A stretch of 44,635 nt of DNA from a virus, in IMG/VR virus record IMGVR_UViG_3300044837_000268, positions 1-44,635 of that record, one strand, 5' to 3'. The notes under the pieces were generated by a model. The model was not told where the DNA came from and ran no database searches. It worked only from the letters and a program-made list of their open reading frames with translations. Shown in pieces: positions 1 through 42,862 of this stretch. Position 1 is the stretch's first letter. Every line of letters begins with the position of its first letter. The position numbers and the translations under genes were made by a program.

Positions 1-1176
1 TCAGGCACCGGACGCAGCTTTGTGGTCGTCATCGACCGAGCGCAGGGGATTGACGTTCTGGCCAAATGCCTGCTTAAGGCGCTGGCCCGCGACTTTGTTG
101 GCCGGGTGGCTGTAGAGCTCGCGGAAAAGCTTGCCGCCATCCGTGTGCCCCATCATCGTGGCGCCGACCCAGTCTTCAACGTTGCGCTCTGCCATCTCGG
201 TAGCACCGAAGTGGCGCAGCTCGTAGAAGTCCAGCTCGGGCGAGCCGGGATTACGGGCGGACCGGAGTTCGCCTCGGCGGTGTGGTTCGAGCTTTGCTTC
301 GAAGATGGCGCGCACTGGCACCCAATAGCTCAGCAGCGCCTGTTGGCTAACTCTCTGGTTGCGCTTACCGGGAAAGAGGATCTCGCCGTTGGTCTCCTCG
401 CAGATCGCCGGCCGCACCCGACGCGGCATACGCTGCAGCGCCGCCATCGCCCTTGGTGGGACGAACGGAAGCACGCGGGTCAAGCCGTTCTTGGGTAGCT
501 GGACTCGGCGCTTGTGGAACTGGCGCGTTATATGGACCTGGCTTTTTTTGAGGTTGAGGTCGAGCCGATCGAGGCCAAAGATCTCGCCGGGTCGCATGGT
601 GGTGGCAGCAGCCCACTCGATAATCGCGGCGAACGTCGGCCCGAAGTCGCCATGGGTTTCGACCGCGATCTCGATCAGCATGTCGAGCTCCTCGCCGGTG
701 ATCGCCACGATGTCCTTTCGGCCGCGGCCCTTCGGAAGACCGAGCCCCGTAAACGGGTTCTCCTTGACCAGTCCCTCCCTGCGGGCGTCCGAGTACATCG
801 CGCGGAGGTTCTTCGCATCTTGGGCGTGCGCTCGGGCATAGGCCAGCGCCTCAGGCACGGTGTACTCGTGGAGCTTGCGCTTGTCGCCGGGGTCGACGCG
901 CTCGCGGAACCGCTTGGCCGACCCCTTGTAGCCGTCATTGCTCGATTCCTTCGGTCGGGGATAGTCCCTAATCCAGCGCTTTGAGAACGAGTCGATCGTC
1001 TCTTGGCGGGGCGGCCGGGTTGCGTGTTCGGCGATCTTTTCCTCGGCTGCCTCGATGGCTTCGTCTTCGGTGTCGTGCGTGCCGGCCCAAACGTGCCCGG
1101 CGCCGCGAATGTAGGGCCGCGCCTGCCAGCGCTTCCCACGTTCCCGGACCCCCAGCTTCTTCGCCCGCTTCGTCAT
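1..1176 (-). CDS. int: Tyrosine recombinase (phage integrase)
   Basis: A 391-residue tyrosine integrase that would catalyse phage integration and, with Xis, excision. A basic N-terminal arm-binding region (about 1-50) and a core-binding SAM-like region (about 55-145) precede the catalytic domain. Visible catalytic residues are Arg195 (in TTMRPGEIFG), Arg321-His322 (in YELRHFGA), His344 (MMGHTD) and the nucleophile Tyr355 (RELYSHP). The usual first His of the HxxR box is Tyr318, a tolerated variation in this family. The stop codon is the first base of the window, so the attachment site must lie just beyond. It starts with ATG directly after the stop of the excisionase gene, so the two are probably cotranscribed. 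Confidence 0.95.
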   Translation of the reverse strand: MTKRAKKLGVRERGKRWQARPYIRGAGHVWAGTHDTEDEAIEAAEEKIAEHATRPPRQETIDSFSKRWIRDYPRPKESSNDGYKGSAKRFRERVDPGDKRKLHEYTVPEALAYARAHAQDAKNLRAMYSDARREGLVKENPFTGLGLPKGRGRKDIVAITGEELDMLIEIAVETHGDFGPTFAAIIEWAAATTMRPGEIFGLDRLDLNLKKSQVHITRQFHKRRVQLPKNGLTRVLPFVPPRAMAALQRMPRRVRPAICEETNGEILFPGKRNQRVSQQALLSYWVPVRAIFEAKLEPHRRGELRSARNPGSPELDFYELRHFGATEMAERNVEDWVGATMMGHTDGGKLFRELYSHPANKVAGQRLKQAFGQNVNPLRSVDDDHKAASGA

Positions 1177-2727: not shown

Positions 2728-3212
2728 TGCCCCTTCTCCCCTGAGTCGAGGGTGCCGGCGGGCCAGCCCTTAGCCCAGCAGTCCCCGCATGGATCGTCGA
2801 TCGCGGCGGCAGCCTCAGCGGCTGCGAGCAAAGCCAGCGCGTAGTCGCGAGCATCGTCAGCAGAGAGCGTCAGGCTCGGCGGCTGCTCGACGCTGATCAG
2901 CGCGGGGTAGTAGCGATTTCCTCGCATGACGGCGCGCCGGCCGGAGTCGGTCCGTGGCACCTCGGCGTCCACCTGGATTTCGATCCGCTCATCGAAGATC
3001 GGGATGGCGTGGACCCGCTGCCAAACCGTCTCCGACTCCCACCAGGTGGCCTGCTCGTCGACCTCTGGGAGATCCCGGACGCAGGCGCAGGCTCGGGTGC
3101 CGGAACCGCCGAGGTCTTCAATCACCACGCCGTCGCCGTCGCCGACAACCCTCAGGCCGCTCGGCGCGACCTTGTACCGGACCTTGCCGTTATCGCAGCG
3201 CTCGCAGGCCAT
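2724..3212 (-). CDS. Cysteine-rich hypothetical protein
   Basis: 162 residues, function not recognised. It starts with a CxxC pair (MACERCDNGKVRYK), followed by CACVRD at about 42-47, which together could bind zinc, and ends with another cysteine pair (DPCGDCWAKGW near 143-153). The middle is acidic with predicted helix (SADDARDYALALLAAAEAAAA). It overlaps the gene below by four bases and the one above by one (TAATG). The paired zinc-like ends are compatible with a nucleic-acid or protein adaptor in the early operon, but this is only inference. Confidence 0.7.
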   Translation of the reverse strand: MACERCDNGKVRYKVAPSGLRVVGDGDGVVIEDLGGSGTRACACVRDLPEVDEQATWWESETVWQRVHAIPIFDERIEIQVDAEVPRTDSGRRAVMRGNRYYPALISVEQPPSLTLSADDARDYALALLAAAEAAAAIDDPCGDCWAKGWPAGTLDSGEKGQ

Positions 3213-9949: not shown

Positions 9950-10374
9950 TGGGCCTTTCGGGTTGGGCGTTGGTGCCGACGGAAGAGGGTTGGAAGCAAC
10001 CGCTTGAGATCTCGGTCAGAGAACTCCGCACCGAGAAGGAACTCGACATCGCTCCCGGTGAGCGAAGTCCCGAAATCGAAGTTGGCGACCTTGGCGACGT
10101 CAGCCAGTGAAAGCCCCAGTCCCGTCAAGGAGGCGAGCCGATCAAGGCGCATGCTTGCCGTGGTCCGACGAGACGGCCCGCACACCCCGCCGCGGCGCTG
10201 GCGCATCCGGACCACCTCGGCGTAGTCCGGGTCGACCCACCGACGGACCGTGGACTGGCCGGGGCGGCGGCCTAATTCGCGCTCGAGCTTGCGAGCGATC
10301 TCGGTGCAGTTGGTCCAGCCAGCCTCGAAGTGCTCCCGGGCCTTGGCGGGGTAGGTGCTGGGGTAGGCGCTCAT
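9946..10374 (-). CDS. HTH-containing hypothetical protein
   Basis: 142 residues. The N-terminal half has a homeodomain-like helix-turn-helix (AKAREHFEAGWTNCTEIA then ELGRRPGQSTVRRWVDPDY), as in terminase small subunits and transposase N-termini. The C-terminal half is leucine-rich and basic (RLDRLASLTGLGLSLADVA, then RDLKRLLPTLFRRHQRP). It follows the replication gene with an ATGA overlap. It may bind the origin or act as a regulator; no experimentally known relative comes to mind. Confidence 0.65.
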   Translation of the reverse strand: MSAYPSTYPAKAREHFEAGWTNCTEIARKLERELGRRPGQSTVRRWVDPDYAEVVRMRQRRGGVCGPSRRTTASMRLDRLASLTGLGLSLADVAKVANFDFGTSLTGSDVEFLLGAEFSDRDLKRLLPTLFRRHQRPTRKAQ

Positions 10375-33305: not shown

Positions 33306-34634
33306 GTCGGTGTCCTCTCGATCGAAGGTAGGCATTTGCGGCGTTGACCCGTCCAGAGCCACGCCCAGAGCGTCGGCCCGCTGCGCCTTCTCGACGGGGA
33401 CCGTGTCCAACTTGTCGAGTGCCCACGCCTTGAACTCATCGCACGACTCGGTGATGAGGGCGATGGGGTCGGCCTCCTCGCCGGGGGCGGGGAAGAAGGC
33501 ATTGGAAACGGCCTCGCGGAAGGCGTTGAAGGCTTCCGGCAACATCTCGTCGAACTCCCGGCGGGCAATGATCTCGCCGAAGGTGCGGTGGGTCTTCTCG
33601 ACTGCGATCTCCTCCTCGGAGAGGCCGACCTTTTTGGCAATCCGTTGAAGCAGGGTTTCCTCGGCCACGGAACCGACGCTACGGCTGCCCCGCGTTGACC
33701 CGTTCGCCTTGGCGAGGTAGGCGTCGATGCCGGCAACGGTCTCAAAGCGCTCGCCCTTGGCCTTCTTCACGCCAACCGATTTCTTCTTGGCCTCCCACTC
33801 TGCGACCGCGGCGCACATGCGGGCCTGGGCCGGTTTAGAGACCTTCACCTTGCCGCCGAATGCGGTGCCGGTGGCACACCCCTTCTTCGCCCAGTTCACG
33901 GCGGTGGCGATGGCTGCAGAGATCGGCCGGCCTCGCTCGGAATGCAGATGGCGGGCGGCACGGTCGATTAGATCCGGCAGCCCGCCGGCCTCGTCGACCC
34001 AGTTCGACTTGCCGGGCTTCTTGTCCAGGCCCGGGAGTGCCTTTCCGGCGCCCTTCTTCAGCGTCCCCTTCTTCGGGTGCAGTAGACAAGCGTCACAGGC
34101 GGCGTGGTCGTCGTCTTCGCTGGCCTTCTCGACCAGTTCGCGCCGGGCCATGCCCTCAATCGAGATCCCGGTGAACTCGCCCTTGTCGATCGCCTGCCTG
34201 CCCTCGTCGCTCGGAGCGATGGCGATGTACCAGGAGCCTTTGGCGATCGTCTCGCCGTTGACGGTGAAGTCGTCGAGAGCAACGGCGTTCTCTACGAGCT
34301 GGCCGTAGGGCTCGAGGGATTCGTGCAGCTTATTCACCAGCCCGCCGTTCCTCATGAAACGGTGGGCGGCCTTGCGGATCTCGTCCTCGTCAGCCCAGCG
34401 GTCCAGCGTGTGCGGTTCCTCGGCCCCGATGCCCGGGCCCTCGTGCCACCCCGGCTCGGCCACCACGCAGTAGGCAACCGACCAGTCCTCGGACTTCAGC
34501 AGGGGGCGCGTGTCGGTCAGCACCTCGGCCTGCTCGCCGTCGGACTTAGTGAGGAAGAAGCGCTTGCGGTTGGCGCCCTTATCGACGATGGAGATCGCCC
34601 GGATATCGGCGTCGCGGATTAGGTTGACGGGCAT
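32982..34634 (-). CDS. Protease (XkdF-like)/DUF6582/scaffold polyprotein
   Basis: 550 residues from ATG 34634 (GGAGGCGTG just upstream; TGATG overlap with the HNH stop). Residues 1-190 match the XkdF-type putative prohead protease (NLIRDADIRAISIVDKGANR ... GEFTGISIEGMARRELVEKA). Residues about 205-290 are a DUF6582-like unit (SNWVDEAGGLPDLIDRAARH ... ARMCAAVAEWEAKKK). The last 240 residues are helical, Glu/Lys-rich, and resemble scaffolding protein (MGLTDKETARIEKLETAVEK ... GVNPALAGVMG). Two late-promoter boxes lie inside the gene, at 33693 and 33342, each ahead of an in-frame start. Confidence 0.82.
   Translation of the reverse strand: MPVNLIRDADIRAISIVDKGANRKRFFLTKSDGEQAEVLTDTRPLLKSEDWSVAYCVVAEPGWHEGPGIGAEEPHTLDRWADEDEIRKAAHRFMRNGGLVNKLHESLEPYGQLVENAVALDDFTVNGETIAKGSWYIAIAPSDEGRQAIDKGEFTGISIEGMARRELVEKASEDDDHAACDACLLHPKKGTLKKGAGKALPGLDKKPGKSNWVDEAGGLPDLIDRAARHLHSERGRPISAAIATAVNWAKKGCATGTAFGGKVKVSKPAQARMCAAVAEWEAKKKSVGVKKAKGERFETVAGIDAYLAKANGSTRGSRSVGSVAEETLLQRIAKKVGLSEEEIAVEKTHRTFGEIIARREFDEMLPEAFNAFREAVSNAFFPAPGEEADPIALITESCDEFKAWALDKLDTVPVEKAQRADALGVALDGSTPQMPTFDREDTDMGLTDKETARIEKLETAVEKIGDGVTKLIEKSEAETEDKAPTAEELNKQLGEVTDSVKKLGEDIAKLGDGGTTQTETETTVTKQDAEAVAKAFESKGVNPALAGVMG
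33325..33350 (-). promoter_or_regulatory. Late promoter L7 (scaffold and capsid)
   Basis: Box GGGTCAACG at 33342-33350, 11 bases, then TACCTT at 33325-33330, the same hexamer as L9. It lies within coding sequence, 36 bases before ATG 33305, and should supply mRNA for scaffold and capsid. Confidence 0.72.
33676..33701 (-). promoter_or_regulatory. Late promoter L6 (internal)
   Basis: Box GGGTCAACG at 33693-33701, 11 bases, then TAGCGT at 33676-33681; the in-frame GTG at 33668 starts 24 bases after the box, the spacing seen for L1 and L2. Confidence 0.7.
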
Positions 34635-35080
34635 CACGCCTCCTTCGGGAGTCGGAAGGGACGCTGGCGGTACTGGCGGCAGCGTCCCCGCCCCCGGCTG
34701 AGCCATGCCACGCAAACGAGCCGGTCTGGGCGCCGGGCGGGCGGCGAGGCGAAATGGAAAACGCTGCCTAAGAAGTGGAGCAGCGGAGTGCGGCCCTTGG
34801 CGCGATTGCATTGCACGCAGGCGCCGGTGAGGTTGGTCACGGCGTCCGGCCCGCCACCCGCTTTCGGGTCGATGTGGTCGATGGTTCCGCCCGACTGCCC
34901 ACAGTAGGCACAGGAGTCGCGGCGAAGAACCGCTCGGAACGCCCCCGGCGCGTACTTGGTCGGCGACAGATTCAGGAACTCATCCAGCGACTCGATCTGC
35001 CGCCGACGACGCTTTGGCCGCATCGGTTCGCCGAGCAAGGCGTGGATTTCGTGGAGGTTTTTGACGGACGCCGGGGTCAC
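34634..35080 (-). CDS. HNH endonuclease
   Basis: 148 residues from GTG 35080. The HNH core is clear: CAYCGQSGGTIDHIDPKAGG with Cys58 and Cys61, then NLTGACVQCNRAKG with the second cysteine pair and Asn. A basic C-terminal tail follows. The frame extends upstream across the phage tRNA (its first codons would be a translation of the T-arm), so that start is rejected; late promoter L5 places the transcript start at the GTG. HNH enzymes in head regions often aid terminase cleavage at packaging; a homing type is the alternative. Confidence 0.82.
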   Translation of the reverse strand: MTPASVKNLHEIHALLGEPMRPKRRRRQIESLDEFLNLSPTKYAPGAFRAVLRRDSCAYCGQSGGTIDHIDPKAGGGPDAVTNLTGACVQCNRAKGRTPLLHFLGSVFHFASPPARRPDRLVCVAWLSRGRGRCRQYRQRPFRLPKEA

Positions 35081-35086
35081 AGATCC

Positions 35087-35112
35087 AGCCTGCCGCGACC
35101 CCGCGTTGACCC
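35087..35112 (-). promoter_or_regulatory. Late promoter L5 (HNH and protease)
   Basis: Box GGGTCAACG at 35104-35112, 11 bases, then CAGGCT at 35087-35092; GTG at 35080 is 23 bases after the box. Confidence 0.72.
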
Positions 35113-35176
35113 GAGAGCATGGAGAGGGACCGCCCTCGCCCTCCGGAGTGACGGTCCCGTGATCGGCCGGAGCCGA

Positions 35177-35250
35177 TAGCGGTGGCCGGATTCGAACCGG
35201 CGACCTCCGGCGCATGAGGCCGGCGCGCTGCCTGGCTGCGCTACACCGCG
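35177..35250 (-). tRNA. Phage tRNA, anticodon CAT (Met/fMet/Ile2-like)
   Basis: A 74-base cloverleaf: acceptor strands CGCGGTG and CACCGCT pair at six positions but C1-U72 is unpaired; D stem GCGC/GCGC; anticodon stem CCGGC/GCCGG with loop CTCATGC; variable AGGTC; T stem GCCGG/CCGGC with loop TTCGAAT; discriminator A. The mismatch at 1:72 is the hallmark that formylase uses to recognise initiator tRNA, although initiators normally have C1-A72 and three GC pairs in the anticodon stem (here two, with the third reversed). G37 next to U36 is unusual. CCA is not encoded. It has its own late promoter (L4). Confidence 0.8.
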
Positions 35251-35262
35251 TCGCAGGGAATG

Positions 35263-35289
35263 AAGCTAGAAGACGGCGGGCGTTGACCC
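35263..35289 (-). promoter_or_regulatory. Late promoter L4 (phage tRNA)
   Basis: Box GGGTCAACG at 35281-35289, 12 bases, then TAGCTT at 35263-35268; transcription should begin near 35256, six bases ahead of the tRNA. Because it serves an RNA gene, the box is unlikely to be a translation signal. Confidence 0.72.
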
Positions 35290-35293
35290 TTGG

Positions 35294-36217
35294 TCAGACG
35301 AACAGCGGGTTATTGACGGCCTGCTTGAAAGCAGAGAGCGCAGCGGGGTTCGTCCCCGAAGTGTCTAGCGTGAAGTCGCCTTCTCCTTCGGCCGTGTGAT
35401 CCCGGTCGAAGTAGCAGACGGACTCCAGCCCTTTCGCATAGAGGCCAAGATTCGTCAGCCAGGCCGCCTTGTTGAGTCGCACATCCTCCGCTACACCGAC
35501 CTCACAGATCATCACCGGCTTGGTCGCGCTGATTGCCGGAATCGCGGCGCGGCTAGGCCCAAAGAGATCAGATGGCTGGCGAACGCTCTCTTTCAACGTC
35601 ATGTAGCCGTCGAGGCCGATGAGGTCCACGTAGGCATCGCCGGGGTAGAACGTGGTGGGGTCGGCGACGTTGGCCGAACCCAGCCCCCAGACGTTCGGAT
35701 TCCAGCACCAGCGGATGTTCGTGGCGCCTTTCGCCCGCATGAAGTCCACGACGTAGCGCCAGCCAGCGATGAAGCTGGCGGCCGACTCGTCGCCGTTGCC
35801 GTACGCGTACCACATGCCATTGAACTCATGGCAGAGGCGGACAATCACCGGTTTGCCGTAGGTGACCATCTTGGCCGCCTCGGCTTCCATGTAGGAATCG
35901 AGCGCTCCGCCAATGACGGCACCCAGCGTCCCGTTCAGGCCGGTCCCCTGGGGGTTCGCCGTCATCTGCCAGGCGAGCAGCAGCTCGGCGCCTACTGCAT
36001 CTGCGTCCGCCTTGTCGCTCGGGAAGGCCAGCACCTGGTTAAAGCCGCGAAAGACCATCATCAGGTCAACTTTGCGTGGCGCGATCGAGGCGTTGAATGC
36101 GGTGATGTCGACGGCTTTCGGCGTGGCGCTCGTGATCACGCCAAGCTTCACAGGGGTGTAGGGCGCTGCACTGGCTCCCCGGGCCGGCGCCGAGCGCCTG
36201 TGGTGACGTCGCCGCAT
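35294..36217 (-). CDS. GH26-like beta-glycosidase (mannanase-type fold)
   Basis: 307 residues. A basic N-terminus leads into a TIM-barrel resembling glycoside hydrolase family 26: IVRLCHEFNGMWYAYG carries the His130-Glu131 pair (acid/base), IRWCWNPNVWG the aromatic-Asn motif, LIGLDGYM a late strand, and PVMICEVGVAED the nucleophile candidate Glu239. Such enzymes cut beta-mannan or related glycans. No signal peptide is visible, so it is more likely carried by the virion and used on surface polysaccharides than secreted. The start overlaps the previous stop. Substrate cannot be read from the sequence. Confidence 0.75.
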   Translation of the reverse strand: MRRRHHRRSAPARGASAAPYTPVKLGVITSATPKAVDITAFNASIAPRKVDLMMVFRGFNQVLAFPSDKADADAVGAELLLAWQMTANPQGTGLNGTLGAVIGGALDSYMEAEAAKMVTYGKPVIVRLCHEFNGMWYAYGNGDESAASFIAGWRYVVDFMRAKGATNIRWCWNPNVWGLGSANVADPTTFYPGDAYVDLIGLDGYMTLKESVRQPSDLFGPSRAAIPAISATKPVMICEVGVAEDVRLNKAAWLTNLGLYAKGLESVCYFDRDHTAEGEGDFTLDTSGTNPAALSAFKQAVNNPLFV

Positions 36218-42754: not shown

Positions 42755-42767
42755 TTTCCCGATCCAA

Positions 42768-42840
42768 CTCCGGGGGTGGGACTCGAACCCACAACCCTTC
42801 GATTAACAGTCGAATGCTCTGCCGATTGAGCTACCCCGGA
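42768..42840 (-). tRNA. tRNA-Asn(GTT), prophage integration target
   Basis: A 73-base cloverleaf: acceptor TCCGGGG/CCCCGGA, D arm GCTC...GAGC, anticodon stem TTCGA/TCGAA with loop CTGTTAA (anticodon GTT), T arm TGTGG/CCACC-type with TTCGAGT loop, discriminator G. CCA is not encoded. Its 3' end faces the prophage, as expected if integration restores the end of this gene. Confidence 0.95.
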
Positions 42841-42862
42841 ACGCCGCGAAGAATTTACCGAC

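Follow-up and report, generated by a model that had tools for sequence, protein, structure and literature searches.

Results

The locus and its setting

The window, by which we mean the whole stretch of DNA analysed (44,635 nucleotides), is a 44.6-kb viral contig with genes for a terminase, portal, protease, capsid protein, tape measure protein, endolysin, primase and integrase; the recognised genes lie on the minus strand. An integrase gene (1–1176, minus strand) at the contig end makes it probable that the phage is temperate. Only hints point to an actinobacterial host, namely the nearest tRNAs, relatives of the capsid protein and terminase in phages of actinobacteria, and leaderless starts; the capsid protein had no match in 396 Actinomycetota genomes, a result that by itself says nothing about the host. 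A gene for a glycosyl hydrolase family 26-like protein (35294–36217, minus strand) lies between a tail-fibre-like gene and the tRNA(CAT) gene that is our subject, and a second tRNA gene, encoding a tRNA-Asn(GTT) with A37 that reads AAY, is found at 42767–42841 (minus strand).

ARAGORN and Rfam model RF00005 (62.2 bits) agree on a tRNA with anticodon CAT at 35177–35250 on the minus strand, which the structural parse and the isotype models described below assign to the initiator type. The gene parses as CGCGGTG TA GCGC AGCCAGGCA GCGC G CCGGC CTCATGC GCCGG AGGTC GCCGG TTCGAAT CCGGC CACCGCT A, a full cloverleaf with every stem paired. Its folding energy is barely better than that of shuffled sequences (z −1.2), a comparison that is uninformative at this G+C content. 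At the acceptor end C1 and U72 are unpaired, followed by G2-C71 and C3-G70, with A73 and no encoded CCA. The D stem has C11-G24, the elongator orientation (Y11-R24), and lacks A11-U24 (R11-Y24). In the anticodon stem G29-C41 and G30-C40 are present and pair 31-39 is reversed to C31-G39, leaving two of the three initiator G-C pairs; the anticodon loop, CTCATGC, has G37 and C38. The unpaired C1-U72, the C-G pair at 11-24, the two retained G-C pairs of the anticodon stem and G37, all named in the original prediction, were seen again. Neither an identical tRNA nor the exact anticodon arm occurs in the viral contigs searched.

A promoter family shared with leaderless genes

The tRNA gene lies 39 nt downstream of a promoter copy at 35289. 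The motif family to which this promoter belongs is real and has the form GGGTCAACGC-N10-TAnnnT: GGGTCAACGC has 11 exact copies in the window, all on the minus strand, against 0.15 expected, and the shorter GGGTCAAC has 14, against 1.18 expected. Copies of the family extend over 19062–41540 of the minus strand (14 copies) and are also found in two related contigs, L052 and L053; GTG is about as frequent as ATG as the start. When 32 copies from the window and these two relatives were pooled in their best common register, the −10 element TAnnnT stood out, with A at offset 21 in 29 copies and T at offset 25 in 30. The −10 element of the tRNA copy is displaced by one base, a feature shared with one or a few other copies. 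Generic sigma-70 and terminator scans gave no matches; the family has its own −35.

For 8 of the other 13 copies in the window, the start codon of an open frame falls 32–34 nt from GGG, at the expected +1. The start codon therefore stands where the transcript should begin, and the messages would be leaderless or nearly so, which agrees with the earlier claim that the same promoter family serves both the tRNA and leaderless genes. At the tRNA gene, the −35-like element GGGTCAAC (35282–35289, minus strand) is placed by the motif family statistics and the −10-like element TAGCTT (35263–35268, minus strand) by comparison with the family's leaderless genes, giving a predicted transcription start at about 35256 and a 6-nt leader. 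A perfect hairpin, ATCGGC-TCCG-GCCGAT (35162–35177, minus strand), stands directly at the 3′ end of the tRNA and would act as a processing or termination signal; a second, G+C-rich hairpin without a T run, GGGACCG...CGGTCCC (35126–35158, minus strand), was found by hairpin search and is a possible terminator. The next promoter copy (35105–35112, minus strand) serves an HNH endonuclease gene (34634–35080, minus strand) with a leaderless GTG start at 35080. With its own promoter, two hairpins after it and then a separate HNH promoter, tRNA(CAT) looks like its own transcript. Late activity of the family is suggested by the genes that it serves, namely those for the terminase, portal, protease, capsid protein, tape measure protein and endolysin.

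Isotype of the tRNA

Covariance models were built from Actinomycetota tRNAs (26 initiators, 8 elongator Met, 19 Ile2). The window tRNA(CAT) scored 82.6 bits with the initiator model, 70.4 with elongator Met and 65.4 with Ile2, a margin of 12 bits over elongator Met and 17 over Ile2; there was thus no clear classification as either of the two other isotypes that the original prediction had left open. In the same order, the control scores were 55.2, 73.3 and 60.1 bits for the window tRNA-Asn, 103.7, 69.3 and 57.4 for a true initiator (L365), and 67.5, 94.8 and 73.3 for a true elongator (L414). A position-by-position score gave the initiator a narrow lead (62.5, against 56.0 for elongator Met and 32.6 for Ile2), which passed to elongator Met (42.1 versus 35.6) when positions that the search pattern itself dictates were omitted; the initiator call therefore rests more on functional positions than on overall likeness. 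Among 12 positions that discriminate initiator from elongator Met, seven are of initiator type (1, 12, 23, 26, 29, 41 and 44), four of elongator type (9, 11, 24 and 57) and one is neither (39).

The elongator tRNA-Met of Geodermatophilus (L257/L414), which has G1.U72, is 82% identical to the window tRNA(CAT) and has acceptor pairs 2-71 to 7-66 and the D loop in common with it. Descent from an elongator by few changes is therefore possible, and C1 may be one change from G1.U72. Initiator-like features are also seen in the nearest phage tRNAs, among them those of Nocardia phage NTR1 and Bordetella phage PHB04. PHB04 itself has a tRNA-Asn beside its initiator-like tRNA, plus a tRNA-Pro and a tmRNA call.

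A11-U24 aids formylation and is among the MTF determinants (PMC7949028), so that formylation should be lower where it is missing, as it is here. Nothing argues more strongly against full proficiency as an initiator, and the original objection from C11-G24 stands. The doubt raised over the anticodon stem carries less weight: the count of two G-C pairs out of three was correct, but the pairs gripped by G1338 and A1339 of 16S rRNA are 29-41 and 30-40 (PMC11497404), and since both are G-C here, two may suffice.

A viral class of initiator-scaffold tRNA(CAT)

Pattern scans of a viral collection for tRNA(CAT) with an initiator D stem and either A37 or G37 matched G37 in 72 contigs and A37 in at least 120. 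From the matches listed, 135 distinct initiator-scaffold tRNAs were parsed. Among these, positions 1 and 72 are mismatched in 103 and form U-A in 24 (together 94%), while G2-C71 is present in 126, C3-G70 in 118 and G30-C40 in 131 (97%). The near-invariance of G30-C40 fits the P-site grip by 16S rRNA (PMC11497404). An intact GGG/CCC anticodon stem is kept by 36 of the 135 listed members (27%), and A11-U24 is also missing in a minority of the listed matches. Among 263 other tRNAs encoded by these contigs, a 1:72 mismatch occurs in only 5% (Fisher p ~1e-55 against the class, for the matches listed), compared with 77–79% of viral initiator-scaffold tRNAs, so that the mismatch is not a matter of chance. 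That C1.U72 is unpaired holds, but it is less special than was first supposed, C.U being a common state among actinobacterial initiators.

Cellular initiators are more uniform than this viral class. In 41 Actinomycetota genomes every clear initiator match had GGG/CCC and A37-A38, and in 120 Pseudomonadota genomes nearly all initiator matches had GGG/CCC or AGG/CCT with A37-A38; the exceptions were a single G37 match from Bordetella, itself identical to the tRNA of a viral contig, and two A37 tRNAs with GGC/GCC stems. Across 84,980 genomes the G37-C38 pattern was found in three tRNAs, two of which are identical to tRNAs of viral contigs.

Among viral tRNA(CAT), G37 was found 53 times with an initiator D stem and never with an elongator D stem. 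G37, first regarded as an oddity that told against an initiator, thus argues for one, since it is seen only on the initiator scaffold. Elongators that read codons starting with A use t6A37, and the bacterial initiator manages without it.

Such tRNAs are often labelled plain tRNA-Met, or nothing, in database records; initiator-like tRNA genes are unannotated in phage records MF477236, MF663786, JQ067093 and MZ188970. A literature search, which left most subscription journals outside its reach, found no paper on phage initiator tRNAs as a class. On this comparative evidence, the window tRNA(CAT) is most likely a member of a widespread, mostly unrecognised viral class that deserves description.

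Relatives of the phage

The actinomycete-binned contig L389, from a distantly related phage, encodes a terminase 46% identical to that of the window and, at a comparable place downstream of it (9980–10053, minus strand), a tRNA(CAT) 83% identical to the window's. This tRNA has A1.C72, U29-A41, G30-C40 and a third loop state, C37-G38; the class must therefore be larger than counted, since our scans took in A37 and G37 only. L052 and L053, fragments found through their protease gene, are closer to the window in protein sequence than L389 and have the same promoter elements ahead of the same genes, with the same starts, though these fragments lack the tRNA. The tRNA is therefore an optional element, and leaderless starts are independent of it; the special link between tRNA(CAT) and leaderless translation that had been proposed is not supported. 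At a place comparable to that of the tRNA, and behind the same promoter, L053 carries a short, strongly structured RNA (3033–3155; z −5.4, 18-bp terminal hairpin), for which there was no convincing Rfam match.

Discussion

The best fit among three isotype models, together with viral relatives that bear the same signature, favours an initiator. We consider it probable that the gene makes a phage initiator tRNA, from its own late-type promoter, that sustains initiation late in infection. Transcription by host RNA polymerase, perhaps aided by a phage factor, would begin at about 35256, and host RNase P and CCA-adding enzyme would complete the RNA. The product would be charged by host MetRS through its CAU anticodon. 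The host formyltransferase would recognise it by the open 1:72, G2-C71 and C3-G70, but as a poorer substrate than the host tRNA, A11-U24 being missing. The 30S P site would then grip G30-C40 and G29-C41, and initiation could thereby be kept going late in infection. The change from A37-A38-C39 to G37-C38-G39 would be tolerated because initiators need no t6A37, and it may help the tRNA to resist host nucleases that cut the initiator there, such as VapC.

The gene could instead encode an elongator or dual-use tRNA-Met, derived from an actinobacterial elongator and reading internal AUG codons late in infection, with the 1:72 mismatch no more than a drifted base. C11-G24, A9 and G57 are elongator-like, the likeness to the Geodermatophilus elongator with its G1.U72 is considerable, and tRNA-Met acting in both roles has been described for poorly formylated initiators (PMC7949028). 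Yet the elongator model scores 12 bits lower, only four of the 12 discriminating positions side with it against seven for the initiator, G37 is absent from viral tRNA(CAT) on the elongator scaffold, and the mismatch seen here as an unpaired C1.U72 is common to the viral class; we regard this alternative as unlikely. An Ile2 role, in which C34 would be converted to lysidine and the tRNA would read AUA, has only the CAT anticodon in its favour and was rejected as extremely improbable: t6A37 is a strong determinant for bacterial IleRS and tRNA-Ile2 (PMC9976931) and G37 cannot carry t6A, the Ile2 model gave the lowest score, and AUA is rare in the phage (16 of 11,612 codons).

A degenerate or non-translational RNA, whether a relic, a decoy for tRNA nucleases or a remnant of an integration site, would account for the relaxed three-G-C stem and for G37 and C38; the phage has an integrase, and L053, of the same group, has a different structured RNA at a comparable place. 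Against this stand the complete cloverleaf with all stems paired, the conservation of G2-C71, C3-G70 and G30-C40 across the class, and the gene's own promoter, and a decoy would be expected to retain the cut site that is lost here. We hold such an RNA to be decidedly improbable; the attachment-site form was rejected, the tRNA being complete and separated from the integrase by 34 kb of the contig.

An initiator tRNA of this kind resembles actinobacterial tRNA-fMet in its CAU anticodon, open 1:72, G2-C71, C3-G70, A73, G12-C23, G26, G29-C41, G30-C40 and AGGTC variable loop, and differs from it in having C11-G24 for A11-U24, C31-G39 for G31-C39, G37-C38 for A37-A38 and A9 for G9. Genes for tRNA-fMet or tRNA-Met(CAT) have been annotated in phages, for example in Sinorhizobium phiLM21-like prophages (PMC12429752). 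The tRNA described here shares its initiator scaffold and 1:72 mismatch with those of the phiLM21-like prophages, NTR1 and PHB04, which are usually lone tRNAs; unlike it, the nearest phage records parsed keep A37, and many phage tRNAs keep the GGG/CCC stem.

The VapC toxins of Shigella and Salmonella cleave initiator tRNA at the A38-C39 junction (PMC4105405), and the bases at this site are C38 and G39 in the window tRNA(CAT). Among the matches listed, and with kinship ignored, position 38 carries a base other than A in 28 of 40 members of the G37 group versus 6 of 95 in the A37 group (p ~5e-14); A38-C39 survives in 7 of 40 versus 73 of 95. Since positions 37 and 38 change together, the site seems to have been replaced rather than to have drifted loosely. 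Phage tRNAs that evade anticodon nucleases have been proposed, as in mycobacteriophage C1, and Shigella phages are said to avoid tRNA-fMet (PMC10264068). Our tRNA is like these in having changes at or next to a known anticodon-nuclease cut site, and unlike them in that the target would be the initiator. Nuclease evasion is plausible for the G37 sub-class; it cannot explain the whole class, because most members, among them 73 of the 95 listed with A37, keep A38-C39. More speculatively, phages may widely carry initiators that have given up the otherwise almost universal three-G-C stem but retain the open 1:72 and G30-C40, among which a G37, mostly C38 sub-class without the VapC site might stand in for the host initiator and sustain translation when the host destroys its own to halt infection.

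This class is easily overlooked, because many of its members are recorded as plain tRNA-Met or lack annotation. If our reading is true, it would constitute a natural library of functional initiators, in which an open 1:72 and G30-C40 would be indispensable and pairs 29-41 and 31-39, A37 and A38 would be dispensable. Initiator tRNA forms a bottleneck in protein synthesis and is attacked by bacterial toxins; phage-borne initiators altered where those toxins cut would, if they exist, amount to counter-defence at the first step of translation.
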